Of a DNA stretch of 64,000 bases, positions 21,614-45,916 are shown piece after piece. The notes under the pieces were generated by a model. That model was given only the letters and a program-made list of their open reading frames with translations, searched no databases and was not told where the DNA came from. A program made the position numbers and the translations under genes. The stretch's first letter is position 1; each line of letters begins with the position of its first letter. The DNA lies in assembly GCA_016214905.1 (NCBI GenBank), contig JACRMQ010000008.1, forward strand, positions 1 through 64,000, given 5' to 3'. Origin of the DNA: Ignavibacteriales bacterium. Lineage in GTDB: Bacteria > Bacteroidota > Ignavibacteria > UBA10030 > SZUA-254.

Positions 21614-22969
21614 TTATTCCTCATCCGTTTTTTCAATAAGGGTCTCGTTTTTATTTCTCTTATAACTAAATGGTGCATGGCATCCCGGAGAACATTTTCC
21701 GCCATTCGGTTCTTTCTCGAACTTGATCGGTAGCATCCACTGGCCGAATGGAACCGCCTCGCGGATGTGTCTGTCATAATTGCTCGCATGAGTTTCATGG
21801 CATGCACGGCAGGTTCGCCCTTTAACTTTTTTGTTGACATGAAGATAATGAAGATTCCTGCTACCATCCCGGAATCCCGTTAATGTCATGGTTGCAGGAT
21901 CTTGTACGAGTGTATTTTGGTGACAGTTGAAACAAAGCTCATATTTCTCCGGAGCAAAGGGTGAATAAAACTCCGGCGGGTATGTTTGAGTTAAGAGGCG
22001 GAAATTTTGCGAGCCATGAACTTCATGGCATCCCGAACAGTCGCGTTCGCGGATTGGACCGTGCCAATTGATATTTTTATCGAACAATGTCTTCATATCC
22101 GAGAGTTTGCTGCCTTTCGCAACCAACTGCTTATCATGACATTTCAGGCAAAGCGTCATCGGTTCTTCTGTAAGTTGTTTTATATGGTTTGCCGTGTGCG
22201 GAGAATGACAAGCCATACACTTTTTTTCTTCATCAAGAGCTAAATGCTTCACCGACATTTTAGTCGTTGAATTTTGAATCGCAGGATGACAAGCAAAGCA
22301 TTGATCCGGAGGGTTTGAACTTAATAAAAATTTTGCATCAGCACTGTGTGGATTATGGCACTTAGCGCAATTTTCACGTGCAGGTTTATGCATATTTTTT
22401 GCTGCCGCGAATGATTCCTGAAAATCTGTGTGACATTGAAAACAAAGCTCGTTAGTCTCTTTCGAAAGCAATTTCGATTTCTCGCTCATGTGCGGAAGAT
22501 GACACGATAAACATTCACCTTCTGCTGCCGGTCCATGTGTGAATTTTTTAGTCATAAGATTTTTGGGGTGACACGAAAAACAGAGATCACTTGTTGAAGA
22601 TTTCCTTAATTGAAATTGTCTATCCGACTGGTGAGGGTCATGGCACTTCGTGCATTCTCCTTTCGCAACAGGCAAATGTAGGTTTCCTTTTTTCTCCATC
22701 GGTTCGTGACATTTATTGCATGTCTCTTCTGAATTTTTTATCGGAACAAATTTATGTTTTTCATCTTTTACAAGTTGATGGCAGGTAATACATTCACCAA
22801 CCGCAGCAGGGCCGTGCACAAATTTTGCCTTGCCAATACCGCTATGACACTTTGCCGTGACGCAAGATTCTTTTGGTTTTTCCTGGGCAAATCCTGTATT
22901 GCCTAATTTCAATGAAAGAATTAAAAAAGACACAATAATTATACAAATTATACGTTTCATATCAAGCAC
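21614..22969 (-). CDS. Multiheme c cytochrome (13 CXXCH plus two variant sites) of the doubled-CXXCH type
   Basis: A 451-residue exported protein with signal peptide (about 1-28). Thirteen CXXCH motifs occur at regular 15-35 residue spacing: CITCH, CNKCH, CTKCH, CFSCH, CLSCH, CFQCH, CAKCH, CFACH, CMACH, CLKCH, CSGCH, CFNCH, CRACH. In addition, CVTAKCH (CX4CH) near the N-terminus and CSPGCH (CX3CH) near the C-terminus look like two more heme sites, giving up to 15. The repeated pattern CHxPH / GPAAxGxCxxCH is that of the doubled-CXXCH (DmsE/MtrA-like periplasmic) family. Such proteins act as heme wires through or near the outer membrane. Overlapping context: the redoxin-TPR gene follows on the same strand. 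A weak TGGCAT box lies upstream (22992-23007). Confidence 0.92.
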   Translation of the reverse strand: MLDMKRIICIIIVSFLILSLKLGNTGFAQEKPKESCVTAKCHSGIGKAKFVHGPAAVGECITCHQLVKDEKHKFVPIKNSEETCNKCHEPMEKKGNLHLPVAKGECTKCHDPHQSDRQFQLRKSSTSDLCFSCHPKNLMTKKFTHGPAAEGECLSCHLPHMSEKSKLLSKETNELCFQCHTDFQESFAAAKNMHKPARENCAKCHNPHSADAKFLLSSNPPDQCFACHPAIQNSTTKMSVKHLALDEEKKCMACHSPHTANHIKQLTEEPMTLCLKCHDKQLVAKGSKLSDMKTLFDKNINWHGPIRERDCSGCHEVHGSQNFRLLTQTYPPEFYSPFAPEKYELCFNCHQNTLVQDPATMTLTGFRDGSRNLHYLHVNKKVKGRTCRACHETHASNYDRHIREAVPFGQWMLPIKFEKEPNGGKCSPGCHAPFSYKRNKNETLIEKTDEE

Positions 22970-23032: not shown

Positions 23033-24505
23033 TCATGCAACAACCGGGAAATTAATTCCGATTGAACTTTGATGATGTTTCGTTGAATGGTGATCCCCTT
23101 GCATATACTTTTTCAGGAAAGAATTTTTCATCATCAGTCTGGTGGCAAGCAACAAATAATCTCTTCTAAATACATTCGTATCGGCTGAAAATTGGGGTAC
23201 CTTCCACATATAAAATTGTTTATAACAATTTACGATAGCGTTATTAATCTCATCGAGTGTCATCGTTTTTGGTTTTACAATCGGAGTTATGAGATTATAT
23301 TTTGAATAATCCCATTCTTCGATATAAGGTTTTAAATCTTTATATAAATCAGAGTAGGGCCAAGGTGTGATTGCAAGAAAATGTCCGAAATCGGGATTGT
23401 AGTGTTTAGCAAGCTCTAATGTAGTGGCTATTGATTCCTGCGTTTCATCCGGCATCCCAAGAACGAATGAGCATTCCGATATCATTCCGTTGGCAGCTAT
23501 CAATCTGAGCGTCTCTTGAGATTGTTCGCACTTGATATCTTTCTTAAAAACATCAAGAGATGCCTGGTTGGTAGCTTCAACTCCGACATAAACGTGTAAT
23601 ATGTTTGCTTTGCGGTATTTCCATAAAATCTTTTCATCGCGAAGGATATCTTCAACCCGAGTTTCCATCAAAAGAGACATATCCATATTTTCATGAATCA
23701 ATCTATCCAAAATCTCTTCCCAACGCTCACCGTTTTTTGTTGGATATTCATCCGATACCATCGCCACATTCACGCCGAATTTACTGTTGAGCAACTTAAG
23801 CTCATCAACAAATTTTTCCGCAGTCAATTCGCGATAACTCTTCTCCCAGAATTTTTGCTGTGAGCAGAAAATACAATCGTGCGGACAGCCGCGTGATGAA
23901 TTAATCGTTGCCATCCTCGATTTGGGTAGAACGTAAAATGTATACAAACTGTAATCGAGCAAATCCCAAGCCGGATCAAGCGAGTTTAAATCGGTTACAA
24001 ACGCCTGCGGACGTGTTGCAATAATTTTGTTTTCATCTTTATAAACAATCCCCGAAACCTTACCAAGATCATTGTCCCCATTGAGACAATTTAAAAGCGC
24101 GGGCATGGTTATTTCACCCTCTCCTCTCACAATGAAGTCTATGAACTGCGGAAAAAGCGAGAATAATTCATCGTACTGAAACGATGGATGAACATTCCCG
24201 AGCACGGTAAGAGCCGAAGGTTTTTCTTCTCTTGAAATTTTTAAAACTTCCGTTGCAGCAACGATACTTGCAGTGATAGAAGAAACACCGAGCATGTCGT
24301 ATTCTTTACCGCGAAGATATTCCCGAATCTCTTCGAGCGAATGCTGAAGCGACATGCTGTCGTATATCTCCACATTGTAGCCATGCTTTCTTAATTCACC
24401 CGCGATATATACGAGTCCAAGGGGGGGCCAGAGTCCGGCAGACTCCAGAACTCCCGAATGATACGGCGGTGTTGCGAGTATTATATTTTTAATTTTCTTT
24501 TTCAT
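23033..24505 (-). CDS. B12-binding-type radical SAM protein
   Basis: A 490-residue cytoplasmic enzyme. Residues 5-145 match the cobalamin-binding Rossmann-like domain of class B radical SAM enzymes (VYIAGELRKHGYNVEIYD; LGVSSITAS), although the classic DXHXXG histidine motif is not clear. The radical SAM core has C207-X3-C211-X2-C214 in SRGCPHDCIFC for the 4Fe-4S cluster, followed by the usual TIM-barrel segments. Family members methylate or rearrange unactivated carbons (hopanoids, bacteriochlorophyll, antibiotics); the substrate here is unknown. Its start overlaps the stop of the CcsA gene (TAATG), so it is the last gene of the cytochrome operon and may modify a cofactor, lipid or protein needed there. 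That link is inference. Confidence 0.85.
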   Translation of the reverse strand: MKKKIKNIILATPPYHSGVLESAGLWPPLGLVYIAGELRKHGYNVEIYDSMSLQHSLEEIREYLRGKEYDMLGVSSITASIVAATEVLKISREEKPSALTVLGNVHPSFQYDELFSLFPQFIDFIVRGEGEITMPALLNCLNGDNDLGKVSGIVYKDENKIIATRPQAFVTDLNSLDPAWDLLDYSLYTFYVLPKSRMATINSSRGCPHDCIFCSQQKFWEKSYRELTAEKFVDELKLLNSKFGVNVAMVSDEYPTKNGERWEEILDRLIHENMDMSLLMETRVEDILRDEKILWKYRKANILHVYVGVEATNQASLDVFKKDIKCEQSQETLRLIAANGMISECSFVLGMPDETQESIATTLELAKHYNPDFGHFLAITPWPYSDLYKDLKPYIEEWDYSKYNLITPIVKPKTMTLDEINNAIVNCYKQFYMWKVPQFSADTNVFRRDYLLLATRLMMKNSFLKKYMQGDHHSTKHHQSSIGINFPVVA

Positions 24506-25344
24506 TAAGGGACAAAATATTCAGAGTGTAACGATTTAGCCACGAACGGTAAAATAAAAATTGTGAAGATCGACATCGCGAAACATGTGACGAGGAACAT
24601 TGCCGATTTTTTTCCGCGCAATTTCCAGAAAACACGTAAGTGAGCAAAGATACCATACATCAACCAGGTAATTAACGACCAGGTTTCAATCGGGTCCCAG
24701 CCCCAGTATCGTCCCCAGCTTACATCAGCCCAAATCGACCCGGCAATTATATTTATCGTCCAAAATATAAATCCGAAACCGGCAAACTTGTAACTGTAAT
24801 CGTCGAGGATTTCCAGTGCTGGGAATTTCTGGTATCTAGGTTTCGATTCATTTTTTTCTTTTAGCAGATAGAGAACCGCAGCGCCTAAAGAAATAATGAT
24901 CGAACCCGCGGCGAGTTTCGCAAAACCAACATGGAGAACTAACCAAAAGCTCCGCAAAGATGGGGGCAAGTTCACCATCTGAGGATTCGTGAACAATGCC
25001 ACAGTAACCATAAAGAAAACAACCGGAATCACGAATAATCCTGCTGGTTGAATTTTTTTCCACTTCAAACTAAATGCTAAAAACAATACTACTGTAATCC
25101 ATGCATCGGAGGATAGCACTTCATACCGTGTCATGTATGGACCGTGTCCCTGCTCTATCCATCTTAAAAGAAGTGCAACGGAATGCGGAATCAACCCGAT
25201 TGCAGCAACTGCCAAAGCTTTTTTTATGTAGTTATCATTTTTAAAAACTAAACTGTATGCAAATAGAAATGTCGATACGATGTAGCAAACTACAGCCACC
25301 CAATGTATGATCACTTCATACTTCAACCATACGAGTTCCGACAT
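24505..25344 (-). CDS. ccsA: Cytochrome c assembly protein, CcsA/ResC family
   Basis: A 279-residue inner-membrane protein with about eight hydrophobic helices. The tryptophan-rich heme-handling signature is visible as WGRYWGWDPIETWSLITWLMYG (quoted here in part: WGWDPIETWSLITW), with conserved histidines elsewhere such as HVGFAKLAAG and HLRVFW. Family knowledge: system II cytochrome c biogenesis, in which CcsA with CcsB/ResB exports heme and attaches it to CXXCH. The ResB gene overlaps upstream by about 29 nt, and a good ribosome site (AAGGAG) precedes the start. Its presence inside the multiheme operon supplies dedicated heme-attachment capacity. Confidence 0.92.
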   Translation of the reverse strand: MSELVWLKYEVIIHWVAVVCYIVSTFLFAYSLVFKNDNYIKKALAVAAIGLIPHSVALLLRWIEQGHGPYMTRYEVLSSDAWITVVLFLAFSLKWKKIQPAGLFVIPVVFFMVTVALFTNPQMVNLPPSLRSFWLVLHVGFAKLAAGSIIISLGAAVLYLLKEKNESKPRYQKFPALEILDDYSYKFAGFGFIFWTINIIAGSIWADVSWGRYWGWDPIETWSLITWLMYGIFAHLRVFWKLRGKKSAMFLVTCFAMSIFTIFILPFVAKSLHSEYFVP

Positions 25345-26704
25345 TCAGTACTCCTTCCTCGATATAAAGTGATTCAATTAATTCATTGAACTCGTAATCA
25401 AAAATCGCTTTCTCTCTTCTTGCAACTCCTCCGAACGCAAGCTTCCAATTCTTTCCCACTTGATCAACAGAAATTAAAATCGTACTCGTCGGGAATACAT
25501 AAACCATCACCAAGCCGATTAAAATTAATCCGAAACCGATGAAGGCATAAGGGACAAAAGGATTTTTCGTTACTATCAATCCGCTCCAGAATCGGATGTC
25601 AGAAAATGTCAGATTTGAATTTTCAAGTTTAATCGATTCACCCGGTTTAATGTTGCCCGAAAATTTCTTTTCACCTTGTTTGAATATTTCCATATAAAGT
25701 TCAGGATTCTTTAGTTCAAAAGATTGAATCGCGGGATCGGGAATCAATTTCATGGTCAGAATGTAATCTGTTGTCGGGAAATCGGACGTTCCAAAGTATG
25801 GTTTGCCTAATTTACCGGGGTGGTCAAGCGAAAAATAAGCAGGAATTGTTTGACCATCAATTTCAAGATTCAATCCAATTGTGTAACCAAAAGAAGTTGA
25901 CTGATAAATTTTTACGCCATCAATTTCGTAAGGTTCATTGATAGAAAGTTTGGCGGGAATCGGCGACTCGTTATCTCTGCCGATTAATACGGAGCTTTTT
26001 AAAGATTTTATATCACCGTTGGAATAATATTCGGGTGAGAAATTTTGAAGCGAGACATTTATTGGCAGCGTGAACTCTTTCGCCAGCATACCGTTTTCTG
26101 TGTTTAAGAAATCTGCTTTCACACCGAAGAATGTATCTCTCTCAAGCAGCTGGACAAATCCCCTGTTCTGAAAAAGATATGTGCCCAAACCGGTAATAAT
26201 TATGAGTGTTAAACCTAAATGAAAAACAGTTGTTCCCCATCTGCTGATGGGGTTCTTTCGCATTGAATACAAATTATCGGATTTATAGGACAACACAAAT
26301 CCCTTCTTTTGAATTTTCTCTAAAATTATATCTAATGACTTTTTCTCAGAAATTAGAAAGGCAAAGTAATTTTTAAAATTCCTATCGGTAACAACGGAAT
26401 TCTGCATTCCATCTGATCGCTTAACTGACAAATAAAGATTAAACAACGAATAGACAACAACAACAAGTAACACGGATATCACCACGAAAAATATTTCAGA
26501 AGTGAACACCCCATTAAGATTCAGAGATTCAGCTACATTGGCAAGAGTTCCGTTTGCTTCTTTCCATTGGTTGTACTGCTCTGGTGACGTGGCTGAAATT
26601 TGCGGAATAATCAATCCGATTAAACTCAAAATGCCAATGGAAGATATCAACAACAGAGCGGTTGAACGAGATAGAATAATATGTTGAAATTTTTTATGGA
26701 TCAT
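25316..26704 (-). CDS. resB: Cytochrome c biogenesis protein ResB/CcsB family
   Basis: About 462 residues from ATG 26704, chosen because AGGTGG precedes it and the product MIHKKFQHIILSRSTALLLISS begins with a membrane helix; the open frame reaches 26809 only because it overlaps the preceding cytochrome gene. Three N-terminal helices, a long periplasmic domain (about 180-420, containing the LNFSP/INEPYEIDGVKIYQSTSFGY block typical of ResB) and a last helix (PFVPYAFIGFGLILIGLVMVYVFP) match the family. Role: partner of CcsA in system II heme delivery. It overlaps the end of the cytochrome gene at 26694 and the start of ccsA, indicating tight translational coupling. Confidence 0.9.
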   Translation of the reverse strand: MIHKKFQHIILSRSTALLLISSIGILSLIGLIIPQISATSPEQYNQWKEANGTLANVAESLNLNGVFTSEIFFVVISVLLVVVVYSLFNLYLSVKRSDGMQNSVVTDRNFKNYFAFLISEKKSLDIILEKIQKKGFVLSYKSDNLYSMRKNPISRWGTTVFHLGLTLIIITGLGTYLFQNRGFVQLLERDTFFGVKADFLNTENGMLAKEFTLPINVSLQNFSPEYYSNGDIKSLKSSVLIGRDNESPIPAKLSINEPYEIDGVKIYQSTSFGYTIGLNLEIDGQTIPAYFSLDHPGKLGKPYFGTSDFPTTDYILTMKLIPDPAIQSFELKNPELYMEIFKQGEKKFSGNIKPGESIKLENSNLTFSDIRFWSGLIVTKNPFVPYAFIGFGLILIGLVMVYVFPTSTILISVDQVGKNWKLAFGGVARREKAIFDYEFNELIESLYIEEGVLNVGTRMVEV

Positions 26705-28631
26705 AACCACCTGCGTTTGAATGTGTTGTGCAACCGCTTTGAGTGCTGTAGCAATTTGATTTTGAATATCCGGTGCGACTAGCCGCTTTCTTAAACCCCC
26801 ATATAACATTCACGTTTATAGCACCATCTCTGTATGCGTAAGGAGCAACATCAGAATTATAAGTAATTAACCTGCTTCGTTTAGCGCCATGAGGTACAGC
26901 TATATGGCAACTAACACATGGAATTCCAGTATAAGCTTTTCCGCCAATTGTTACAGAGCGAGAAGCATGTTCTGAGTGAGCATTATTTTGCCAAGTTGTG
27001 CCAACACGTAACGGATGACAACCTACACAGAAAAGATCGGTTGCCCAATTATTAGTGTTACTGTTAATGTCTCGAAGTGTCCACAAATTCGTTCCACCTG
27101 CATTTGTTGGCCAGTACTGAGCATTAGGTAGAGCGGCTGTCCCCCGCAACATAAATTTTCGAACAGAACCATGTGGACCTTGCGGAACAGTAGCAGATGT
27201 AACCTGATCGTTCCCGTGACAATCGGAACAATACATCGTTTGTGTGCCAACGCTGTTCCAAGCAGTAGACATTTGTGATGTTGCGAGTAATTTTGGAGTA
27301 CCTGAACCCGTTTGGTTATTTAATGCGTATTGAACCGGATGAACTGATTTGTTCGCAACATTATATTCCATCGCCTGGTCGGTAATATTTATACCGGATG
27401 GACCAACTATGGTAGTTACACCATTAACAGCGGTTCCAAATGCGTTGTAAGAATGACATCGAAAACATATCTGATTTTCCTGTGTAACCGGATTGGTCGC
27501 TGTAAAAGTTGTCGGTTGGGTCCATATTGCGGCAGTACCTGGAATAACACCCCCAACACCGGTTAAGACATTTGATACGGCATTACTCTTCAATGTATGT
27601 AATCCATCTTTTGCCTGATGACCATTGTGGCAATCGTAACATTCGGCATGCCTGTTAGGAACATTTAAGCTCGTTGAGTTATCAGGATTTTTGTGTTTCG
27701 CGCTGACAGTATTCGTCGGATGTTTATAAGTTTTATTTGCCTGTGTTTGGATATCTTTTGTATTGGCTCCCGGAGTGGTTGAACCATGACAGCTTGTTTG
27801 ATAACAAGTACTTTCCTCGGCAAAATCTAATAAATAAGGTATACCTTGACCGTTGTGCGATTGATGGCAATTTCGGCAAGCCCATTCACCAATTGTAGTA
27901 GCCGTTGATCCCGGTGGCGTATAACTTTGAGTAGAAGTTTTATGAATAGATGTTGCCCAATTTGTTTTATTATGGCAGAAGGTGCAAAGAGCTGCATTAG
28001 CGTTTGAGATTTGTAGAAATTTTCCGTTTGTGTTATGATGCGGTTCATGACATGAAGTGCATTCAACTTTACCGGTGGAGGCATCAGGATCCAATTTTAT
28101 TGGAGTGGCCCATGGCCATGTTCTTGAAACCAACTCCGGATCCTTTGTAGGATCGTATCCGAATCCCACGGGATGATCGTTCGCTAAAGATGTACCCACA
28201 TTCGTTGATTGAACTGCTGGCAATGTTGTTACACCACTCGCCATAGATATACTTCCTGCAGATCCAGATCCGGTGGTATTATAAACTGCACCGATAGCGA
28301 TTGTTCCGTCGTGGCAAGCCAAACATAATTTTGATTTTGTACCCGGTTGCGTTGAGGCCGGATAACTTTTTGAAGTGAGATAGTCGCTACTATATAATGT
28401 ATATGTAGCTGCAGTCGGTTGATGATTCCATAATTGTGAAGTAACTTGTTTACTGTGCGGAGTGTGGCAAAATACGCAAATCTGAGTTTCGCTGGTTGCT
28501 TTAATTGTACCGGTACCTGTTGTGCTTAAATTATGTTTCGAGTTTATAATACTTGTCTGAGAATAGCCTAAACAGAACATCAAGAATGAGGTAGACCCGG
28601 TTAACAGTATTTTTAAAAATTTTAATTTCAC
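26694..28631 (-). CDS. Multiheme c cytochrome (10 CXXCH plus one CX4CH) with an N-terminal tetraheme module
   Basis: A 645-residue exported protein starting at GTG 28631, whose GTGA overlaps the stop of the NHL gene before it. Signal peptide 1-24. Residues 27-235 repeat the tetraheme module of the two small cytochromes in this operon: SKHNLS, CVFCHTPH, CLACHDG, NDHPVGFGY, CTSCHEPHH, CTFCHNK. Beyond this lie CRNCH, CYQTSCH (CX4CH), CYDCH, CFRCH, CSDCH, CVGCH and CVSCH. The extreme C-terminus has a further Cys pair (NCYSTQSGCTTH) that is not a heme motif. Thus it reads as a tetraheme subunit enlarged by seven more heme sites. Probable extracellular or outer-membrane electron carrier; partner NHL protein encoded immediately upstream. 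Confidence 0.92.
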   Translation of the reverse strand: MKLKFLKILLTGSTSFLMFCLGYSQTSIINSKHNLSTTGTGTIKATSETQICVFCHTPHSKQVTSQLWNHQPTAATYTLYSSDYLTSKSYPASTQPGTKSKLCLACHDGTIAIGAVYNTTGSGSAGSISMASGVTTLPAVQSTNVGTSLANDHPVGFGYDPTKDPELVSRTWPWATPIKLDPDASTGKVECTSCHEPHHNTNGKFLQISNANAALCTFCHNKTNWATSIHKTSTQSYTPPGSTATTIGEWACRNCHQSHNGQGIPYLLDFAEESTCYQTSCHGSTTPGANTKDIQTQANKTYKHPTNTVSAKHKNPDNSTSLNVPNRHAECYDCHNGHQAKDGLHTLKSNAVSNVLTGVGGVIPGTAAIWTQPTTFTATNPVTQENQICFRCHSYNAFGTAVNGVTTIVGPSGINITDQAMEYNVANKSVHPVQYALNNQTGSGTPKLLATSQMSTAWNSVGTQTMYCSDCHGNDQVTSATVPQGPHGSVRKFMLRGTAALPNAQYWPTNAGGTNLWTLRDINSNTNNWATDLFCVGCHPLRVGTTWQNNAHSEHASRSVTIGGKAYTGIPCVSCHIAVPHGAKRSRLITYNSDVAPYAYRDGAINVNVIWGFKKAASRTGYSKSNCYSTQSGCTTHSNAGGYDP

Positions 28632-29626
28632 TTCATATACCTGAATATCTGCAATCGTTTATTAAGTGAATCGACAATATAAATTGTATCATTTTTGTCT
28701 ATAGCTATACCGCTCGGATTCATAAACTCACCATCACCTGAACCTTTGCTTCCAACAACTAATAATAACACTCCATTATTATCAAAAATTTGAAAATTAT
28801 CCATCAACGCATCCGTTACATAAACATGACCTTCAGAATCGAGCGCAATCGACTTGGGGTTTGCAAAACTGCCCCCGCTGTTTCCTACCCCCCCGAATTG
28901 TCCCATGAACTTGCCGGACGCATCACACATTTGAATCCGAAAATTCAGCGCATCCACAATATACATTGAGTTGCCAGCGCATAACTGGACCGGATAATTA
29001 AATTCTCCATCTCCACTGCCGCGTTTCCCGAATTCTGATATGTAATTTCCGCTCAGATCGAAAACGAAAATTTTATTCTGCCCCGTATCAACAATATATA
29101 ACTTCCCATTGATGATCTGAATACCTGTGGGTCTTACAAAATTATTCCGGATTACGAATTGCAGTGAGAGGTCATCGTCTAAAACTAAAATTTCTTTCCG
29201 TTCCGAATCGGAGATATATAAATAACCATTCGATGCAAAAGCCAAACCTACGGGTGATTGAAACCGGCCAATCTTTGTTTCTGTGATGACTGAATATTCT
29301 TTATCATCCAGATTTAAAATGTGAATACATTTTGCACCCGGATCGGATATATAGATAACGCCCGATGGGGAAACCGTAATTCCGACCGGTTGAACAAATC
29401 CGTGCCTGGTTTCCATCCCGCCGAACAAAAAACTCAGCACACGAGAAAAAAATCCCTTCTCTGATGCTACCTCATCTAAATTTGAAATTGTGCGGAGATG
29501 TTTTACTCTCGTTTTTTGTGGTAATTGTGGCCAAACAAGTTCCGCGGAAGAACTTTGAGGCACTGCTTGTTCCATCAAAAAAATAGTGCTAAGCGATAAT
29601 ATTATGACCCGACAAATTTTTAACAT
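28628..29626 (-). CDS. NHL-repeat beta-propeller protein (copy C), exported
   Basis: A 332-residue exported protein. The signal peptide ends near residue 24; unlike its two paralogues it has no lipobox cysteine. Residues 27-70 carry the shared lead ELVWPQLPQKTRVKHLRT... and residues 75-330 contain about six NHL repeats (e.g. GSGDGEFNYPVQLC, GDGEFMNPSGIAID, NDTIYIVDSLNKRLQIF), predicted to fold as a six-bladed propeller. NHL propellers are usually protein-binding platforms, not enzymes. It overlaps the start of its partner multiheme cytochrome by 4 nt. Third member of a triplicated NHL-plus-cytochrome cassette. Confidence 0.88.
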   Translation of the reverse strand: MLKICRVIILSLSTIFLMEQAVPQSSSAELVWPQLPQKTRVKHLRTISNLDEVASEKGFFSRVLSFLFGGMETRHGFVQPVGITVSPSGVIYISDPGAKCIHILNLDDKEYSVITETKIGRFQSPVGLAFASNGYLYISDSERKEILVLDDDLSLQFVIRNNFVRPTGIQIINGKLYIVDTGQNKIFVFDLSGNYISEFGKRGSGDGEFNYPVQLCAGNSMYIVDALNFRIQMCDASGKFMGQFGGVGNSGGSFANPKSIALDSEGHVYVTDALMDNFQIFDNNGVLLLVVGSKGSGDGEFMNPSGIAIDKNDTIYIVDSLNKRLQIFRYMK

Positions 29627-29681
29627 GCTTAATTATAATATTTTCTCGCATTGAAACAAAGCAGTGCCTTAAGTTAAATAT

Positions 29682-30368
29682 TTACTTTACGTGGCATGTA
29701 AAACAGAGTTCGCTGTTGGAATTCGATACCCTTAAAAATGTGGACACACCGGTAACACCATGCGGATCATGACAACTACCGCATTCGAGTGTTGCTGACG
29801 CTGCGGTTGTACCGTAAAGAGTTAACGATCTCGTCGGTGATGTTGCATCGACAGATACTTTTGTACCCGCAACTGTTTCCGTTCTTAAATCAGCATCTGT
29901 TAATCGACTTGTATTGTAAACAAAACCAATCGGGTGATCATTGGTTAGGTTTGTTCCAAGCCCCGTGTACCCTGTTGTATCAATTTTACCTGGAGCTGTA
30001 AAAACCGGAGCTGTTCCGGCACCGCTACCTGGATTATTCACAACGCTTGCCAATGTTATAGTACCATCGTGGCAGCTTAAACAATTTTTCGATACTGCAC
30101 CCGGTTGCGGAACGGTTTGCTCCATAGTCGGACTGGAATAAACCGCATATGATGCAGTAGAGGCAGTCCGATTCCAGAGCAAGCTTGAACTCTGTGTAGA
30201 GTGTGGAGTATGGCAAAAAACGCAAACCTCGGTATAAGTGCTAGACGTGGTTTTCGGACCGGTTGTGGTTGAACCGAATGATAAATCGTGTTTACTGTTT
30301 CTGATCTGTGCAGATCCAACAACTGCAACAACCAAAATCAGTGTTATGATGTTTAGTAAGTATTTCAT
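29682..30368 (-). CDS. Tetraheme c cytochrome (copy B), candidate OmcE-like nanowire subunit
   Basis: A 228-residue exported protein; signal peptide 1-20. Four heme motifs: C49-X2-C52-H53, C96-X2-C99-H100, C196-X2-C199-H200 and C222-X2-C225-H226. Only four other histidines exist, H27 (SKHDLS), H56 (CHTPH), H145 (NDHPIGF) and H203 (CHDPHG), exactly enough to complete four bis-His hemes. The same pattern recurs in the 33431 gene and in the N-terminus of the 26694 gene. Size, heme number and ligand economy resemble OmcE of Geobacter, which polymerises into extracellular filaments; this comparison is from memory and structure is not shown. A perfect ribosome site (AAGGAG) precedes ATG. It follows its NHL partner after 60 nt of ATT-repeat DNA. 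Confidence 0.9.
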   Translation of the reverse strand: MKYLLNIITLILVVAVVGSAQIRNSKHDLSFGSTTTGPKTTSSTYTEVCVFCHTPHSTQSSSLLWNRTASTASYAVYSSPTMEQTVPQPGAVSKNCLSCHDGTITLASVVNNPGSGAGTAPVFTAPGKIDTTGYTGLGTNLTNDHPIGFVYNTSRLTDADLRTETVAGTKVSVDATSPTRSLTLYGTTAASATLECGSCHDPHGVTGVSTFLRVSNSNSELCFTCHVK

Positions 30369-30379
30369 ACGTAACTCCT

Positions 30380-30436
30380 TTAAGATATTAATTAATTATT
30401 ACTGTTATTACTATTATTACTTTTATTATTATTCAT
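30380..30436. repeat. ATT/AAT trinucleotide-rich tract before the tetraheme gene
   Basis: The gap between the NHL lipoprotein and the tetraheme gene is almost wholly TTA/ATT units (for example TTATTACTATTATTACTTTT). It begins inside the NHL stop codon region and ends before the ribosome site of the tetraheme gene. It is likely a slippage-prone or unstructured leader that keeps the ribosome site open. Confidence 0.6.
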
Positions 30437-31436
30437 TACCGATAAACTGAAAAACCTGAACGCGTGCGTTTAACTGATCTACAACATAAATATAATTGTC
30501 TTTATCTATAAAAATTCCAGCAGGTAATTGAAATTCAGCAATACCTGCACCTGCCTGTCCAACAAACATCAACGCTTCACCTTTATCGTTGAACAGTTGG
30601 AAATTATCGAATGCGGCATCGACGACATAAATATGTTCGAATGAATCGAGCGCTATACCTTTGGGACGTGAAAAATTCCCGGGTGTATTTCCAAGTTGTC
30701 CGAATTTTGATATGAAGTTCCCGTCAATATCGAAAATCTGAACTCGTCCGTTTATAGTATCAACTATATAAACTTTATTATTACGTACTGTGATATTTGT
30801 CGGAAAATTAAACTCGCCATCATTACCACCCCGCTTGCCGAACGTGAATAAAAATTTACCTTCATCGTTATAAACTTTAACCAAATGATTATTAGTGTCG
30901 ACAATATATAATCGGTTAGAGGTCGAGTCATAAGCTATTCCCGTTGGTGAAGCAAATTCATTTTCTTCTCCGATTCCAAATAATAGATTACCCTCTATGT
31001 CGTACGCAAAAACACGCTTAACTTTTGAATCGGCAATGAACACTTTATTTGATGGAGTAATTGCAATACCGATCGGAGATTGAAGCTTCGCGCTTCCTTT
31101 ATCGCCGATCAATCGAATTTGTTTTTGAGTAACATCGAATACGAATACCTTTTTCAAACTCGTATCTGAAACATAAATATTCTTTGTGGCATCAACCGCA
31201 ACAGCATACGGCCGCTCGAAAGTTGTACCTGCATTTTCACCCGCAAGCGCTTTTAGAACCTTATCAATTCCTGATGATTCAAAAAAATCTTTTCCTTTTA
31301 TGATATTTACCATTTTTATTCGGGGTGTTTCGGGTGGCGGAGGCCAGACATAATCAGGAATTGCTTCCTTCGATGCGCCGCAACCGAAAAGCAAGAGTAA
31401 ATAAAAGTATATAATTATATGTGTAAATGATTTCAT
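30429..31436 (-). CDS. NHL-repeat beta-propeller lipoprotein (copy B)
   Basis: About 335 residues from ATG 31436; an in-frame TTG at 31454 is weaker. The N-terminus MKSFTHIIIYFYLLLLFGCGAS carries a lipobox with Cys 19, predicting a lipid anchor in the outer membrane. The shared lead YVWPPPPETPRIKMVNI is followed by about six NHL repeats (GGNDGEFNFPTNITV, PGNFSRPKGIALDSFEHIYVVD). It is a paralogue of the NHL proteins at 28628 and 34196 and precedes a tetraheme cytochrome, as they do. Probable role: docking or assembly platform for the partner cytochrome, an inference from constant gene pairing. Confidence 0.9.
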   Translation of the reverse strand: MKSFTHIIIYFYLLLLFGCGASKEAIPDYVWPPPPETPRIKMVNIIKGKDFFESSGIDKVLKALAGENAGTTFERPYAVAVDATKNIYVSDTSLKKVFVFDVTQKQIRLIGDKGSAKLQSPIGIAITPSNKVFIADSKVKRVFAYDIEGNLLFGIGEENEFASPTGIAYDSTSNRLYIVDTNNHLVKVYNDEGKFLFTFGKRGGNDGEFNFPTNITVRNNKVYIVDTINGRVQIFDIDGNFISKFGQLGNTPGNFSRPKGIALDSFEHIYVVDAAFDNFQLFNDKGEALMFVGQAGAGIAEFQLPAGIFIDKDNYIYVVDQLNARVQVFQFIGNE

Positions 31437-31689
31437 TATCTTTAGATTGTTCAATTATTGTGCCTTTATAAATTATCGTTTTAATTCAACTAATACGGTT
31501 TTCCATATCACAAATGATATTAATTGTGCCATATAACACTATGCGAAAAAACATAAAATTTAGGACTGGAGCGTTAATTTCGTTAATGCCGGAACTAACA
31601 ACTCCAATCCTTTCTCTCAGGCAAGGGGTATTGCGAAGAGAGTTATTTATGATTTCAAATTTTAGCCTTTGGATCTTGGAATCAATCAT

Positions 31690-33378
31690 TTATAATCCAA
31701 TATTAAAAGGTCTTGCTATGCTGAACCAGATGTCGTGACGGGTATCTATGAACCTGAATTCCTGCAACCGCAACTGAAATGCAAGTGCCCGCCAGCCATA
31801 AACGAATTCGATTGTTTGTTCAAAATATGGTCTTCTATAATATATATCATACGATCGGTTGAGACGATAATTCATTGATAGATCTTGTATAAAGAAACGA
31901 CCACTATTTATATTTGCCATCAGTCCGTATAAATGGCCTGAAATACCGTTTGATATCCAACTTATACTACCTTCAACTGAAATTGTAAAAGGGCTATATA
32001 AGTAGAGAGACATATTCAATTGCTCTCTTAATTTTATCGTTTGATATTTATAAAAAAGCTCGTTTGTATTTGACCGTCGTTCATTGTGAAATTCAACACC
32101 TGTTTGAGAATTTATTTCGTACGGTAATGTTTTACCGAGCGTCATATTCAACATATTATTTATCTCATCTCGCCCAAGATATCCCTTAATCCTGGTCATG
32201 TTAAACGATTGATTAACGTTTATTTGATATCCACCCGATGTAGTTTGAAGACTGTTTGTCAAACCCCCAACGTAAGACCTCTGACCTAAAAGGGAAACTT
32301 GCTTTGCATAACCGAACGATAATCCGTTGGAAAATGTGATGTCGCTGATCGATCTCATATGTTGTATTGTTCCGGTTCCTGTTAAATTATCGGTGCGTTG
32401 TTTGTAACTGCCGTTCTGCTGAAGATAAATATCGTAAGTCGATTGGTTGCCAAACGAAATTGCGTAATTAAAATTTTCATTCTGCAAAAACTGAATAGTT
32501 TGTCCTATACCCAGCGTTGTTGACGATGCTGATTGAGAGCTTGCATTTCGAGTCAATATATTAGTGTTAAGCCTGAATTTCTCGAACAATGTACCGTTAT
32601 AAATACCATTGGCATTTATCATAGATGTATTTTCGAACTTATAATATTCTGAAGTAATATCTGCATGATGATTGGGGGAAAATTCTTTGTTACCGCTCAT
32701 CTGGAACCGGAGGTACCTTAACCTGTTGTTCGTAAAACTTTCGTAATTCTCACTAAGAGACCCGGATAAACTAAACGAACCATCCTGTGTGGATTGAGAC
32801 ATATTAACAATAAGCTCCTGCATAACTTGATTGAACCGGTTCAACGACAGATCCGACCAATGACGGTTTCGTTGATATGCAACGGATGTTGTTGGCAAGA
32901 ATTTTAAACTCATGGTCGACAACTCAATGCGCTGTTGTTGTTGCCGATAGTCATTGAAGCCGACATTAAATTTACTGAATTGTGAAGATGATTTGATTTG
33001 TTGATCTCTGGCAGAAAACGATAGTCGCACCGGCAATCGTTGCAGAGCATTGACATTCAGATCATAGAACCCGATAACGGTTTGCTTGTAAGAACTGTTG
33101 ACTCCGGCAAAAGATGAAGTGTTATAATTTATATTGATGTTGGTGCGGGCATCGAAGGAAAAAATCATGGGGGACAAAATATAACCCGCCGTCCCCAAAA
33201 TAAATTGTGGATTCTTGCGTACCAATTTATAAAAAGCGCCGCCGCTATAAGCATCCTGATATTGATGCTGATACCTCAGTTCACCACCAATTGATGAAAA
33301 CTGACTGACCCCATTATAAATAGATAGCACTAATAAAAGCGCTATAATAAATACTCGCTTCACTTTTCCCCTTGCCAA
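31690..33378 (-). CDS. Predicted outer-membrane beta-barrel protein of the cytochrome operon
   Basis: A 562-residue protein with signal peptide (MARGKVKRVFIIALLLVLSIYNGVSQ). The rest is made of alternating aromatic/polar strands of about ten residues with Asn/Ser/Gly-rich turns, many Tyr and Gln, no cysteine motifs and no soluble domain, as expected for a large outer-membrane barrel of about 20 or more strands. I do not recognise a named family. It is encoded between tetraheme copy A and NHL copy B on the same strand, so it is a candidate for the pore that lets electrons or exported cytochromes cross the outer membrane, similar in role to porin-cytochrome conduits. That role is inferred from context. 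Confidence 0.75.
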   Translation of the reverse strand: MARGKVKRVFIIALLLVLSIYNGVSQFSSIGGELRYQHQYQDAYSGGAFYKLVRKNPQFILGTAGYILSPMIFSFDARTNININYNTSSFAGVNSSYKQTVIGFYDLNVNALQRLPVRLSFSARDQQIKSSSQFSKFNVGFNDYRQQQQRIELSTMSLKFLPTTSVAYQRNRHWSDLSLNRFNQVMQELIVNMSQSTQDGSFSLSGSLSENYESFTNNRLRYLRFQMSGNKEFSPNHHADITSEYYKFENTSMINANGIYNGTLFEKFRLNTNILTRNASSQSASSTTLGIGQTIQFLQNENFNYAISFGNQSTYDIYLQQNGSYKQRTDNLTGTGTIQHMRSISDITFSNGLSFGYAKQVSLLGQRSYVGGLTNSLQTTSGGYQINVNQSFNMTRIKGYLGRDEINNMLNMTLGKTLPYEINSQTGVEFHNERRSNTNELFYKYQTIKLREQLNMSLYLYSPFTISVEGSISWISNGISGHLYGLMANINSGRFFIQDLSMNYRLNRSYDIYYRRPYFEQTIEFVYGWRALAFQLRLQEFRFIDTRHDIWFSIARPFNIGL

Positions 33379-33386
33379 AATTGTTT

Positions 33387-33415
33387 GTGCGACTCATCTT
33401 TGAGATGAGCCGCAC
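33387..33415 (-). terminator. Hairpin between tetraheme copy A and the barrel gene
   Basis: Arms GTGCGACTCATCT and AGATGAGCCGCAC (33387-33399 and 33403-33415) pair over 13 positions with one mismatch and a 3-nt loop. No T-run follows on the minus strand, so it more likely stabilises the upstream cytochrome mRNA or partly attenuates than fully terminates. Confidence 0.6.
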
Positions 33416-33430
33416 AATATTAACTGTTGC

Positions 33431-34096
33431 TTACTTAATATGACATGAAATACAAAGAACGCCACCATCGCTTGAAACACGAGTCATTTTGCTCGTGCCA
33501 TGCGGGTTGTGGCAGCTACCGCATTGCATCATATCGTTGTAAAGCGGTAAATTGTTTAATGGGGTGGCTTGTAATGCGCCGTCAGCAGTTACTAATGCTG
33601 CGTCGTATACAAAGTTCACCGGATGTGTATGTGATAAACCGGTTCCATATTTGGTTCCACCATGAAGATTGGCTGCATCACCAACTGTCTGGTTTTCTAT
33701 TGCGGTTGTCCATGTGCCACCATAGGGGCGTTTTTCATATGCTGTTGTGGTGAACAACGCACTACCATCGTGGCAGCTCATACACATTGAACTGACATTA
33801 TCCTGACCAGTCGCTAATGCGGTTGGTGTGGCATCCATTGTTGCGCTTGAATAGACACCATATGCGGTTCCTGCTGTCAACGCTTTACGCGACCATAGCG
33901 GTGCTTTGATTCCGGTTGAAGGAACGTGTGGGGTATGACAATATGCGCAAACCTTCTCCGATGCACCCTTGATGGTGTTCGCAGAGGAAGCTGCAAAGTT
34001 GTGCTTACTTGTAGCCATTCCTAATGTTGGTGTTTGACTCATTACGAATGTTGTTGCTACGAGTATCATTACTGCTACAACTAAAAGTTGTTTCAT
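33431..34096 (-). CDS. Tetraheme c cytochrome (copy A), candidate OmcE-like nanowire subunit
   Basis: A 221-residue exported protein; signal peptide 1-20. Heme motifs CAYCH (C50-H54), CMSCH (C105-H109), CGSCH (C192-H196) and CISCH (C215-H219). The distal-ligand histidines follow the same plan as copy B: H32 in SKHNF, H57 in CHTPH, H158 in THPVNF and H199 in CHNPHG; H145 and H156 are extra. A perfect ribosome site (AAGGAG) precedes the ATG, suggesting high expression. It follows NHL lipoprotein copy A and precedes an mRNA hairpin and a beta-barrel gene. Family resemblance and filament formation are inferred, as for copy B. Confidence 0.9.
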   Translation of the reverse strand: MKQLLVVAVMILVATTFVMSQTPTLGMATSKHNFAASSANTIKGASEKVCAYCHTPHVPSTGIKAPLWSRKALTAGTAYGVYSSATMDATPTALATGQDNVSSMCMSCHDGSALFTTTAYEKRPYGGTWTTAIENQTVGDAANLHGGTKYGTGLSHTHPVNFVYDAALVTADGALQATPLNNLPLYNDMMQCGSCHNPHGTSKMTRVSSDGGVLCISCHIK

Positions 34097-34195
34097 AAAT
34101 TACTCCTTGATTAATGATTTTGTTTTTACTGCCTCGTGATTGAACAGAATCCTTTCCCTCATGAGGCATTGAGGAAGTGGATTTTTGATTTTTAA

Positions 34196-35212
34196 CTAAT
34201 CTACTTTTAACAGTTGAAATACCTGTATCCTCTGGTTCAACTGGTCTGCAACGTAAATTGTATTTTTTTGGTCGATTGAAATTCCGACTGGATTTTGAAA
34301 TCCCCAATTATCTTTATTAGAGAACCTACCTACATACATAAGCAGTTCAAAATTCTGATTAAAGATCTGATAGTTTTGATGCATTGCATCGACTACATAG
34401 ATATTTTGATACGTATCGAGAGCTATACCCTTGGGACGTGCGAATGTGCCAAAGATATTCCCTTGCTGTCCGTATTTCCGTAAAAACTTTCCTTGTGAGT
34501 CGAACTGTTGTATCCGGAAATTAAACGCATCCACTACATAAATATTTCCTGCCGTATCAACTGCAACGCTTTGAGGGAAATTAAATTCACCATCTGCATC
34601 ACCGCGCTTACCTATCGTCAATAATGAATCTCCGCTTTCGGAATAAATAAATACCTGATGATTTTTGTTATCTGCAACAACCACCCGTTTATTCAATTTA
34701 TCGTATTCAACATCAACCGGGTTCTGGAAAGCACCTGACTTTCCGATAAGATTTAAAAATTTCCCTTCAGGAGTAGTGACAACAACCTGACCAATTTCTG
34801 CAATACCGATGAATAATTTCCCATTTCCGTAAGCAAGTCCAAGCGGATTGCCGAGCGGAACGGGAATATTTTCTCCAAGAACTGAAACCTTTTTCTGTTT
34901 TTCATCAAAGACTATGATACCCTGCGCAACATCGGTAACAAAGATTAATCCATTACCATCGCTGCAAACATCGAATGGACGAGAAAGTGCGATGGTTCCT
35001 GTTTTCCCGGTTAAAGCTTGAGCGAAAATTCCAAACTTTGAAAGAAAATCGTCTTCACTCGAAAAAGTTTTTACATATTTAATGCGTGCTTCATCAGGCG
35101 GGCTGGGCCAAACAACATCTTCTTTCTGAATATTCTTTGAACCACATCCATAGAATGAGTTGGCACAAATTACTGTTACAACTATCAATATTTTTTTCAA
35201 TATATCTTTCAT
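34196..35212 (-). CDS. NHL-repeat beta-propeller lipoprotein (copy A)
   Basis: About 338 residues; ATG 35212 gives MKDILKKILIVVTVICANSFYGC with a lipobox Cys at residue 23, while an in-frame ATG at 35221 adds three residues; neither has a strong ribosome site. The lead VVWPSPPDEARIKYVKTF matches the paralogues, then about six NHL repeats follow (RGDADGEFNFPQSVAVD, NIYVVDAFNFRIQQFD, FARPKGIALDTYQNIYVVD). Predicted outer-membrane-anchored propeller. It is followed by tetraheme copy A after about 100 nt containing an imperfect TGCCTC/GAGGCA hairpin. Pairing with a cytochrome is the same as for the other two copies. Confidence 0.9.
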   Translation of the reverse strand: MKDILKKILIVVTVICANSFYGCGSKNIQKEDVVWPSPPDEARIKYVKTFSSEDDFLSKFGIFAQALTGKTGTIALSRPFDVCSDGNGLIFVTDVAQGIIVFDEKQKKVSVLGENIPVPLGNPLGLAYGNGKLFIGIAEIGQVVVTTPEGKFLNLIGKSGAFQNPVDVEYDKLNKRVVVADNKNHQVFIYSESGDSLLTIGKRGDADGEFNFPQSVAVDTAGNIYVVDAFNFRIQQFDSQGKFLRKYGQQGNIFGTFARPKGIALDTYQNIYVVDAMHQNYQIFNQNFELLMYVGRFSNKDNWGFQNPVGISIDQKNTIYVADQLNQRIQVFQLLKVD

Positions 35213-35230
35213 AATCAACATAGATAAACT

Positions 35231-36160
35231 TTACTTGTGTGGATCATCCTTTTTTTCGTTCTTCTTATCATCCGGATTTCCCGGTTTATTGACTTCTTCT
35301 TCAGACGGAATCGGTTGAATAGTTTGCCCGATACCTTTTTCCTCTGTAGACATTTTTTCCATATCTTCAAATGATGGAATAACAACCTTCAGTGCTGCAG
35401 GCGGCTTCGGAGACAAGTTCAAATCGGCAGTGGCAAGTGAAAAGCCAGCGGAAAAAATCCACGACGACATCGGCTTAGAGTGCATATAACCACCGCTAAT
35501 TTGAACGCTGATGTTGGAAAAGATTCTAACCATTCCGCTCAGCATACCTTGTTTTTCTCTCATCCCGAAATAATTATAGATGCCTTCACCGCCAATTTTA
35601 AATTCACTGCTTAGAGGATATGTTCCGCCAACGGCAGTCACCGGTAAATATTTATGGTTAATATTCATAGCTCCGGCAATTACGATTGGATTAAAATTAC
35701 CAATCGATCTGCCGCCGATGAAGAAGAACCGCGTAGTATTCTGTGGAAACAGTCCCTTCTCAGACGAGAGCGGTGATGAGATGGTTTCACACCAGATGGC
35801 AAGATGCCCAATCACAGGAACCCTGAACGGCAGAAGAAACTTACCACCGATTCCATATGAGACATCTGAACTGATTGCACCTGTTTGCTCGCTGTACATT
35901 GAAATAAACGCTTCGAGATTTGTCGAAAATCCGCCATGAAGAGTGTACACATTAAATCCTTTCATGCCGCCACGAAGGAAATCAACGCGACTCATATTGA
36001 CACGCAACTGGGAAGATGGCGCAACGGAAATTGTGGGAGCTATGACGATGCTCGATCCGCCGGAAATTCCTAAATCGGTAAATGTTGTTTGCGCGGTGGC
36101 AATAGTTGCCATAGCAAACAATAAACAGAGTGATCGGTATGTATTTACTTTTGATGACAT
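35231..36160 (-). CDS. Exported beta-rich protein, probable outer-membrane protein with acidic/Lys tail
   Basis: About 309 residues from ATG 36160 (MSSKVNTYRSLCLLFAMATIATAQ signal peptide); another ATG is three codons earlier. Both starts lie inside the end of the octaheme gene, so translation is coupled. Residues 30-240 show repeated amphipathic strands (VSYGIGGKFLLPFRV, RFFFIGGRSIGNFN, ISVQISGGYMHS) typical of a small outer-membrane barrel. The C-terminal 60 residues are Pro/Glu/Lys-rich and disordered, likely facing the periplasm. No known family recognised. With the 562-residue barrel it gives the operon two outer-membrane candidates. Confidence 0.7.
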   Translation of the reverse strand: MSSKVNTYRSLCLLFAMATIATAQTTFTDLGISGGSSIVIAPTISVAPSSQLRVNMSRVDFLRGGMKGFNVYTLHGGFSTNLEAFISMYSEQTGAISSDVSYGIGGKFLLPFRVPVIGHLAIWCETISSPLSSEKGLFPQNTTRFFFIGGRSIGNFNPIVIAGAMNINHKYLPVTAVGGTYPLSSEFKIGGEGIYNYFGMREKQGMLSGMVRIFSNISVQISGGYMHSKPMSSWIFSAGFSLATADLNLSPKPPAALKVVIPSFEDMEKMSTEEKGIGQTIQPIPSEEEVNKPGNPDDKKNEKKDDPHK

Positions 36161-37368
36161 TGCATACACACTGCCATTGAACCGCCGCCGGCTTTCAACA
36201 ATGATTGGTTTTCAGAGCCATGCGGTTTGTGGCAACTTACACATGAAATTTCTTCGTTCGATTCTTTATTCAATTTCGAAAATCGGAGCGGATGCTTATC
36301 AACAGGGTGATTCACGAGATGATTTTCATGACATCCCGTGCACAACCTATAAATTTCTTTTTTTAATATATTCGGTTGATCGGACGCATGCGGTGAATGA
36401 CAGATACCACAATCGTTTGCCACCGGATGCTGCACCGCTGAGTTTTCAACTTCATCTTTTTTCTCGGAGTGGCAATCGTAGCAAACACCCGGTACTCCTT
36501 TCGCAACAATTTCAATATTTTTTTCTGCTGATCGTTCATGGCAAACTGAACAATCTTTAGGTTCTGCTGCGGGTCCATGTTTCACTAATCCTCCGGCGAT
36601 TTGCGTGTGACACAGGCCGCAATTCTCGCGCAAACCTTGGGCATTCACTTCACCGGGTAATTCTTCATGACAGGTCGCACATGTCGATGCAAGTTGTGAA
36701 CCATGGAAATGTGCTTCACGCGATTCACTGCTTCGAGCGTCTGATACGAACCGGATGTAAAATTCTTTCGAATCGTTTTTATTACCGTTATCGGCAAAAT
36801 ATATTCTGTTCACACCGGGCAATAATTGTATCGACGTGTAATATAAAATCTGATCAGGATTAAGTGGGTCGAGATGAGTTGAAGTGTAAACGGTATCTTT
36901 CCATCCTCTAATATGAAGCAGAACATGTGAAGCACTTATATTTTGAACCTGATTGATAATTTCGGCGAATTGCGGTAATTGCCAAAAAGATCGAACAGTT
37001 ACAGTATCTGTATAAGAAAAATTAACCGAATCGGCTTTTGAGAATCCGTTGTAAAACAGAAAAGAGGTAGATACTAATTCGAGCGTCGACTTCGGAGGAA
37101 ATAATTTAAAAACCTCTTTGGCAAAATTATCTTTATTGGTCTTGTTGCTGATATCAATCAATTTTTCAACCGACCATTGAGTGGAAATTAATAAGCCGGC
37201 CGTTTGTTCCTTTGGTGCCGATATTAAAAACAATTGTCCCTGATCGAATGCGAGCGAATCCGGATATATCGGTGCTAGAACCGTTAATGTAGACCTCGGT
37301 GCATCGCCCAGAAAACAGACAATGCAAAGAACGAATAGAATTGATATTGTGAGATATTTATTAATCAT
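36145..37368 (-). CDS. Octaheme c cytochrome with a beta-rich N-terminal domain
   Basis: A 407-residue exported protein, first gene of the long operon. The signal sequence is MINKYLTISILFVLCIVCFLG. Residues 25-215 contain no heme motif and look like a beta-sandwich. Eight CXXCH motifs fill residues 225-407: CATCH, CGLCH, CSVCH, CYDCH, CGICH, CTGCH, CVSCH and CMQCH, with the doubled-CXXCH style words CHSPHAS and CHKPHGS. The last heme motif is three residues from the end. Likely periplasmic or outer-membrane-associated electron carrier. Its transcription can be assigned to the sigma-54 promoter at 37401-37416, 33 nt upstream of the start. Confidence 0.92.
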   Translation of the reverse strand: MINKYLTISILFVLCIVCFLGDAPRSTLTVLAPIYPDSLAFDQGQLFLISAPKEQTAGLLISTQWSVEKLIDISNKTNKDNFAKEVFKLFPPKSTLELVSTSFLFYNGFSKADSVNFSYTDTVTVRSFWQLPQFAEIINQVQNISASHVLLHIRGWKDTVYTSTHLDPLNPDQILYYTSIQLLPGVNRIYFADNGNKNDSKEFYIRFVSDARSSESREAHFHGSQLASTCATCHEELPGEVNAQGLRENCGLCHTQIAGGLVKHGPAAEPKDCSVCHERSAEKNIEIVAKGVPGVCYDCHSEKKDEVENSAVQHPVANDCGICHSPHASDQPNILKKEIYRLCTGCHENHLVNHPVDKHPLRFSKLNKESNEEISCVSCHKPHGSENQSLLKAGGGSMAVCMQCHQK

Positions 37369-37585: not shown

Positions 37586-37993
37586 TCACTTTCTAAGATT
37601 TGAAGTGAATCTGCTTAGAAGATCTGGAATCTCAGCCAGGTTAAAAGGTTTTTCAATGAAACGATCGACTGAAGATTGTAAATTATTTTGGTATGCGAGA
37701 GAGTCTCCATAAGCACTCATCATAATAACAGGCACATTTGGGAAATTTGCTTTTATTTTAGAAGCGACCTGAAAACCATCTATATTCGGCAGCTTGTAAT
37801 CTGTCAGCACAATGTCAAAATGCGATGATAATGATTTTTCAATCGCTTCCTCTCCGCTATCAACTATAGTCACGGCAAAACCGGCTTTCCTGAGAACGTG
37901 AGATAACGACCATCCGATAAGAGCTTCATCTTCTACGATCAAAACTTCTATCAGTGAACTTTGTTTTTTGGGTATAGATTCAATAAGATTCAT
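37586..37993 (-). CDS. Single-domain response regulator (receiver only)
   Basis: A 135-residue protein made only of a CheY-like receiver: acidic residues E21/D22, phospho-acceptor D65 in IVLTDYKLPNIDG, Lys115 in EKPF. There is no output domain. It lies between the sigma-54 activator and the cytochrome operon it probably controls. Likely roles are phosphate sink, phosphorelay intermediate or competitor for the heme-bearing kinase at 39517. Its stop codon is about 170 nt upstream of the sigma-54 promoter of the cytochrome operon. Confidence 0.9.
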   Translation of the reverse strand: MNLIESIPKKQSSLIEVLIVEDEALIGWSLSHVLRKAGFAVTIVDSGEEAIEKSLSSHFDIVLTDYKLPNIDGFQVASKIKANFPNVPVIMMSAYGDSLAYQNNLQSSVDRFIEKPFNLAEIPDLLSRFTSNLRK

Positions 37994-45641: not shown

Positions 45642-45722
45642 GTTAGACATTGCATCATTGTTTCATCGAATCATTAGACCAATGTTACAATGTTAAAATG
45701 AATAAATGATAAGATTATTTAT

Positions 45723-45804: not shown

Positions 45805-45916
45805 TTTACGAACTCATCGATCCTGATTCCATATTCAAATACTTGAACTTAGGAAGCGGGACTCGGAGTAATTTACAAAGAACGAACTTTCTCAAATATA
45901 ATACATTTAAGAAAGC

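Follow-up and report, generated by a model that had tools for sequence, protein, structure and literature searches.

How does a cell hold on to an extracellular cytochrome nanowire? The question is raised by a gene cluster of an Ignavibacteriales bacterium, located on contig JACRMQ010000008.1 of assembly GCA_016214905.1 (positions 1 to 64,000 of the forward strand; this whole 64,000-nucleotide stretch is called the window below). Assembly, anchoring and cell wiring of cytochrome nanowires are largely unknown according to a 2025 review (PMC12307469). The cluster codes for two free tetraheme cytochromes related to the OmcE filament subunit and for a 645-residue undecaheme cytochrome that begins with an OmcE-like module. 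In our reading, which we hold to be probable, the cluster serves OmcE-type extracellular electron transfer: the free tetrahemes would form a polymer, and the undecaheme would end this chain or anchor it at a large outer-membrane barrel. An earlier note on this DNA had described a triplicated cassette, an NHL-repeat gene followed at once by a tetraheme gene. The six open reading frames (ORFs) concerned, three for NHL proteins and three for cytochromes, were confirmed on the minus strand, and so were their pairing and the shared tetraheme module, but the first and second pairs are separated by a barrel gene:

34196..35221, minus strand: NHL beta-propeller lipoprotein, upstream of the 221-residue tetraheme (Pfam NHL; lipobox C26)
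33431..34096, minus strand: 221-residue free tetraheme cytochrome, OmcE family (phmmer to 7tfs; position kept in relatives)
31690..33378, minus strand: large outer-membrane beta-barrel, 562 residues (AlphaFold2; Foldseek/VIA; hhalign)
30429..31454, minus strand: NHL beta-propeller lipoprotein, upstream of the 228-residue tetraheme (Pfam NHL; lipobox C25)
29682..30368, minus strand: 228-residue free tetraheme cytochrome, OmcE family, probable filament subunit (phmmer; four CXXCH and four distal histidines)
28628..29626, minus strand: NHL beta-propeller without lipobox (Pfam NHL; 4-base overlap with the undecaheme start)
26694..28631, minus strand: 645-residue undecaheme cytochrome, candidate filament anchor or terminator, UetJ-like (ten CXXCH and one CX4CH)
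27954..28631, minus strand: OmcE module of the undecaheme, residues 1-226 (phmmer to 7tfs; module clade)
26697..27953, minus strand: seven-heme extension of the undecaheme, residues 227-645 (hhalign to separate heptahemes)

A phmmer search against all PDB chains returned the OmcE filament 7tfs as the top match for all three cytochromes, with E=3.9e-39 over residues 5-228 of the 228-residue protein, E=1.1e-21 for the 221-residue protein and E=3.9e-31 over residues 14-222 of the 645-residue protein. The putative multiheme cytochrome c 9yuq ranked second in each case (E=1e-32 for the 228-residue protein). The 228-residue protein carries CXXCH motifs at 49, 96, 196 and 222; outside them it has no histidines but H27, H56, H145 and H203, exactly as the earlier note had read them. 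Their equivalents are H32, H57, H158 (by alignment) and H199 in the 221-residue protein, which has H145 and H156 in addition, and H33, H59, H153 and H198 in the 645-residue protein. These positions are kept in free tetrahemes from many phyla (115/117, 105/117, 116/116 and 117/117, in the order of the 228-residue protein) and in all 33 fused proteins. Both free tetrahemes combine four CXXCH in about 220-240 residues, the four conserved distal histidines and signal-peptide-like N-termini, and by full-length homology they are members of the OmcE family. OmcE of Geobacter sulfurreducens (7tfs) is likewise a tetraheme of about 230 residues with the same four CXXCH and four distal histidine positions. 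The comparison with OmcE proposed in the earlier note was thus borne out as homology to a solved filament subunit, and the free tetrahemes, judged from their sequences, probably polymerise.

The undecaheme contains ten CXXCH and one CX4CH, i.e., 11 heme sites, and seven of them lie beyond the tetraheme module, as had been counted. In 20/20 aligned homologues, the 11 heme-motif histidines and exactly 11 further histidines are invariant (positions 33, 59, 153, 198, 230, 259, 313, 328, 338, 431 and 487). A C-terminal CX3-8CH site present in most homologues is degenerate here (CX6CTTH; 26694-26760, minus strand) and looks lost. Proteins of this build, having 10-12 hemes and an OmcE module at the N-terminus, were found in Bacteroidota, Campylobacterota, Gamma-, Beta- and Alphaproteobacteria and one Deltaproteobacterium. 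Six loci of Nitrospirota and Geobacteraceae (L157-L162) instead contain an NHL gene, then a separate tetraheme gene and then a separate heptaheme gene, the last two lying next to each other:

L157, 7821-9791: adjacent split tetraheme and heptaheme genes
L158, 13973-16020: adjacent split tetraheme and heptaheme genes
L159, 5093-7013: adjacent split tetraheme and heptaheme genes
L160, 6713-8731: adjacent split tetraheme and heptaheme genes
L161, 6091-8000: adjacent split tetraheme and heptaheme genes
L162, 8314-10292: adjacent split tetraheme and heptaheme genes

The separate heptahemes matched the fused extension in hhalign with 99.9% and E=1e-33, compared with E=1e-6 over 74 columns for a control set of other multihemes. 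As the separate heptahemes also matched this control set (E=3e-19), shared heme motifs contribute to the match with the extension.

A maximum-likelihood tree was built from 78 modules, of which 28 were fused, 6 split and 44 free tetrahemes. A single branch, with support of 97/93 and present in 98% of bootstrap trees, parts the 34 heptaheme-linked (fused and split) modules from the 44 free tetrahemes, so that the heptaheme-linked OmcE modules, including that of the 645-residue protein, form one cross-phylum clade. On this sequence evidence the undecaheme combines an OmcE module and seven further hemes in one fused protein and is not a local copy of a tetraheme. Local tandem triplication was also examined by topology tests. 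With the Bacteroidota modules held together it was weakly rejected (p-AU, the approximately unbiased test, 0.043), the group having been named after the tree was seen; for Nitrospirota it was rejected with p-AU 0.0009.

Relatives from the same family and order show how the locus is built. Their gene order is kept as histidine kinase, NtrC-type regulator, response regulator, octaheme, 312-residue protein, NHL, 221-type tetraheme and barrel, followed by an optional pair of NHL and 228-type tetraheme and then by NHL and undecaheme. The optional pair is absent from five relatives (G002, G003, G004, G012 and G014), which have two pairs only. The locus therefore consists of an NHL-tetraheme-barrel-NHL-undecaheme unit plus one extra NHL-tetraheme pair, the 221-residue tetraheme being the conserved copy and the 228-residue tetraheme with its NHL gene an insert. 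As a description of how the cluster evolved, "triplicated" did not hold. Its genes lie on the same strand, and the whole cluster is likely one operon, as had been assumed; a 235-bp gap after the barrel gene keeps this at likely. In one relative (G020; L123, 9900-10325), a 228-type tetraheme is cut to about 141 residues, possibly by an internal deletion, and retains four CXXCH.

The two kinds of protein also occur together. When 296 evenly sampled genomes of the phylum were searched, matches to the heptaheme query came from four genomes and those to the OmcE query from the identical four, each of which has at least two OmcE modules, one of them outside the heptaheme protein. Among 60 nearer relatives, all eleven positives carry both the free tetraheme and the undecaheme types.

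NHL repeats are clear in all three propeller proteins (PF01436, E 1e-25 to 1e-31). We collected genome loci with the 228-residue query, so that the adjacency statistics describe OmcE-like loci only, and counted adjacency on stop-to-stop frames, since greedy ORF calling misses genes in GC-rich loci. An NHL gene was found within 600 bp of an OmcE-like tetraheme gene in 70/79 loci, in 68 of them on the same strand. In a placement control restricted to loci that hold both gene types, 68/73 were adjacent, whereas random placement gave 16.8 on average and 27 at most. Two NHL genes are reported to adjoin an OmcE homologue of Geoalkalibacter (PMC12016550), and NHL genes adjoin OmcE-like genes in the Geobacteraceae loci L026 and L039. 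The pairing highlighted in the earlier note is therefore real, but it is a rule of OmcE-type genes across phyla and not special to this locus. By a heuristic pattern, 64/83 NHL proteins beside free tetrahemes have a lipobox, compared with 4/18 beside undecahemes; the window follows this division, with a lipobox in both tetraheme partners (C26 and C25) and none in the undecaheme partner.

A fourth OmcE-like gene, of 258 residues, lies with its own NHL gene on another contig of the genome (C7:126239-126940). Its locus (L115 5633-10013; G000:C7:122632-127012) encodes an NHL protein with a type IX secretion (T9SS) tail as well as a 14-heme protein that contains a P_proprotein domain; the same set of OmcE-like, T9SS-tailed NHL and 14-heme genes is present in G006 and G036. 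The tail suggests that the NHL partners may act at the cell surface.

The 562-residue protein was confidently predicted by AlphaFold2 to fold into a plugless barrel with about 28 strands (predicted local distance difference test, pLDDT, 86.5). Its fold matches in Foldseek/VIA were general outer-membrane barrels including FimD, LptD and MtrB (6r2q_B, template-modelling score 0.40), and hhalign matched it at 96.6% to the Campylobacterota barrel in the same locus position.

From the fusion, the split genes, the co-occurrence and the clade structure, we infer an anchoring role for the undecaheme, which can be set into the following scheme. The free tetrahemes would be exported and then join head to tail into a polymer, one histidine per subunit completing a heme of its neighbour by analogy with OmcE. 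The undecaheme would be a specialised terminal subunit, its OmcE module joining the chain and its seven-heme wire linking the chain to the cell, for which the 562-residue barrel is the most likely site or passage. The NHL propellers, with a lipid anchor in the partners of the free tetrahemes and none in the partner of the undecaheme, would be probable assembly or stabilising factors at the surface. Octaheme and 15-heme proteins encoded nearby would supply electrons on the periplasmic side. Expression may be controlled by a two-component system that contains heme.

Several observations weigh against this scheme. Fusion and co-occurrence are associations only and are silent on which end of a filament is concerned. 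In OmcE, heme 2 is ligated by a histidine of the neighbouring subunit, according to PMC12203936, and the set of four distal histidines is therefore compatible with a polymer and a closed monomer alike. The AlphaFold2 model of the 645-residue protein (pLDDT 35; predicted template-modelling score 0.18) was unusable for docking, and hhalign detected no homology between the 562-residue barrel and gammaproteobacterial Uet-like barrels (5.7%). Extracellular electron transfer by cytochrome filaments in vivo is itself disputed (PMC11077965).

Other arrangements of the same proteins can be envisaged. One is a porin-cytochrome conduit of the Uet kind that makes no filaments; in it, the undecaheme would span or cap the barrel, and monomeric surface tetrahemes would exchange electrons with minerals or electrodes. 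Uet components are described in such terms in PMC10734462, and the window gene order resembles that of gammaproteobacterial Uet-type loci; but the window tetrahemes are full-length homologues of OmcE with the same ligand set, and OmcE polymerises (PMC12954529). We regard such a conduit as unlikely. It is very improbable that the tetrahemes have nothing to do with surface filaments and shuttle electrons as ordinary soluble proteins of the periplasm: they do match general doubled-CXXCH and cytochrome c3/c7 profiles, but OmcE and 9yuq are their best relatives, over the full length, and their genes sit with those for NHL lipoproteins and an outer-membrane barrel.

Even with a filament, the undecaheme might sit at the far end, as a cap or tip from which electrons leave to the outside, and not at the cell as a base. 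The proposal of a cap or base extension in the earlier note gained comparative support from fusion, split genes and co-occurrence, and fusion and clade data place the undecaheme only at the end of a chain, or joined to it; base and tip are indistinguishable by sequence, but a barrel gene lies nearby in several phyla, and a position at the tip seems quite unlikely to us. The 221- and 228-residue subunits, which are only about 40% identical and fall into separate clades, might form two different filaments or a mixed polymer, depending on conditions. Many other loci also have at least two OmcE-like genes. This idea, drawn from sequence comparison and compatible with an anchoring undecaheme, we judge somewhat unlikely.

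Returning to the anchoring undecaheme, it can be stated more generally that UetJ-type undecahemes are terminal or anchoring subunits of OmcE-type nanowires, whose seven-heme wire would plug the filament into an outer-membrane barrel, and that this two-part build, which Nitrospirota and Geobacteraceae encode in neighbouring genes, is a general solution to attachment. We advance this version tentatively and give it a little under an even chance. If it is true, the undecaheme or heptaheme arrangement would be a general answer to how nanowires are attached to cells. The comparison singles out the undecaheme as a specific, testable protein for nanowire anchoring: in several phyla it joins the domain of a filament subunit to a multiheme wire, and its split-gene version occurs in Geobacteraceae, to which a genetically tractable model is related. 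A published link between undecaheme cytochromes and OmcE was not found in a search that did not include the main Uet, OmcE and osc papers, and the novelty of the link is uncertain.

The cluster was compared with known systems. Unlike what is known of OmcE, it combines two diverged free copies and a fused undecaheme in one place. Uet, from Ca. Tenderia electrophaga and Gallionella, comprises an extracellular tetraheme UetA, an undecaheme UetJ, a barrel UetC and the NHL proteins UetHI, as described in PMC10734462. Three gammaproteobacterial loci (L040, L041 and L074) have this reported composition: tetraheme, peptidyl-prolyl isomerase (PPIase), barrel, trihemes, further heme-free genes, NHL and undecaheme. 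The window cluster shares with Uet an undecaheme, a tetraheme and NHL proteins beside both; it also encodes a confidently predicted beta-barrel, whose homologues are in Campylobacterota. Its undecaheme, with 11 sites, is homologous to those of these Uet-type loci, which served as stand-ins for UetJ, and is probably homologous to UetJ, the comparison having been made via these loci and not Tel_16545. In contrast, the cluster ORFs include neither the PPIase UetB nor the triheme set UetDEG, each window tetraheme has its own NHL gene, and the barrel is not detectably homologous to the gammaproteobacterial ones. Because PPIase and trihemes are missing, we did not file the cluster as a Uet pathway; by its sequences it is an OmcE-type cluster related to Uet.

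In the osc operon of OmcS wires, OscD is proposed to act in morphology and OscE/F/G in secretion (PMC13194489). The window cluster is similar in that a probable filament cytochrome is encoded with candidate partner proteins for wire morphology or secretion. OscD is said, in work by Shen from 2025, to be beta-propeller-like. Unlike the tetrahemes of the window, which match OmcE, OmcS has six hemes and no sequence similarity to OmcE, and the window cluster has no OscH-type chaperone gene. With MtrCAB the cluster shares a large barrel and multiheme cytochromes weakly similar to DmsE/MtrA models; the barrel matched no MtrB/MtrC model, and DmsE and OmcA/MtrC scores were below the NCBIfam cut-offs.

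The surrounding genes of the cluster are as follows:

39517..41043, minus strand: histidine kinase with one CXXCH in the sensor region (HisKA/HATPase_c; orthologues upstream of the cluster in relatives)
38139..39506, minus strand: NtrC-type response regulator (sequence; orthologues in relatives)
37586..37993, minus strand: single-domain response regulator (sequence; orthologues in relatives)
36145..37368, minus strand: 407-residue octaheme cytochrome with an N-terminal heme-free domain (eight CXXCH; conserved in relatives)
35231..36169, minus strand: 312-residue protein that may be a small barrel (orthologues in the same place in relatives)
25316..26809, minus strand: ResB-like cytochrome c maturation protein (sequence; phmmer matches to ccsA-adjoining genes in other loci)
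24505..25344, minus strand: CcsA-like cytochrome c maturation protein (sequence; phmmer matches in other loci)
21614..22969, minus strand: 451-residue multiheme cytochrome, probable periplasmic partner (13 CXXCH and two CX3-4CH)

Octahemes similar to the 407-residue protein adjoin OmcE genes in Geobacteraceae and Campylobacterota, and in L116 and L120 the undecaheme has an equivalent of the 451-residue multiheme as its immediate downstream neighbour. The 312-residue protein had no Pfam match and no homology to the other barrels compared. Loci of Nitrospirota, Campylobacterota and Gammaproteobacteria have a PPIase gene near the tetraheme, whereas none lies near the window cluster, which has the ResB and CcsA maturation genes; the rotamase genes of this genome are on contig C7, away from the cluster. 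A search for sigma-54 promoters gave 25 matches, with 25.7 expected by chance, and hence no excess. The single CXXCH of the histidine kinase reads CFRCH, and the protein is a possible c-heme redox sensor.

Elsewhere in the window, two more multihemes (14879-16444 and 16844-19582, minus strand) have C-terminal type IX secretion domains (FlgD_ig/Por_Secre_tail) and are therefore probably exported to the surface. A molybdenum cofactor riboswitch (RF01055, 60.6 bits; 45709-45880, minus strand) lies upstream of a molybdopterin biosynthesis cluster. Near these cofactor genes, a stretch of higher GC (0.44) encodes a molybdopterin oxidoreductase and an NrfD-type membrane subunit (47790-51472, minus strand).

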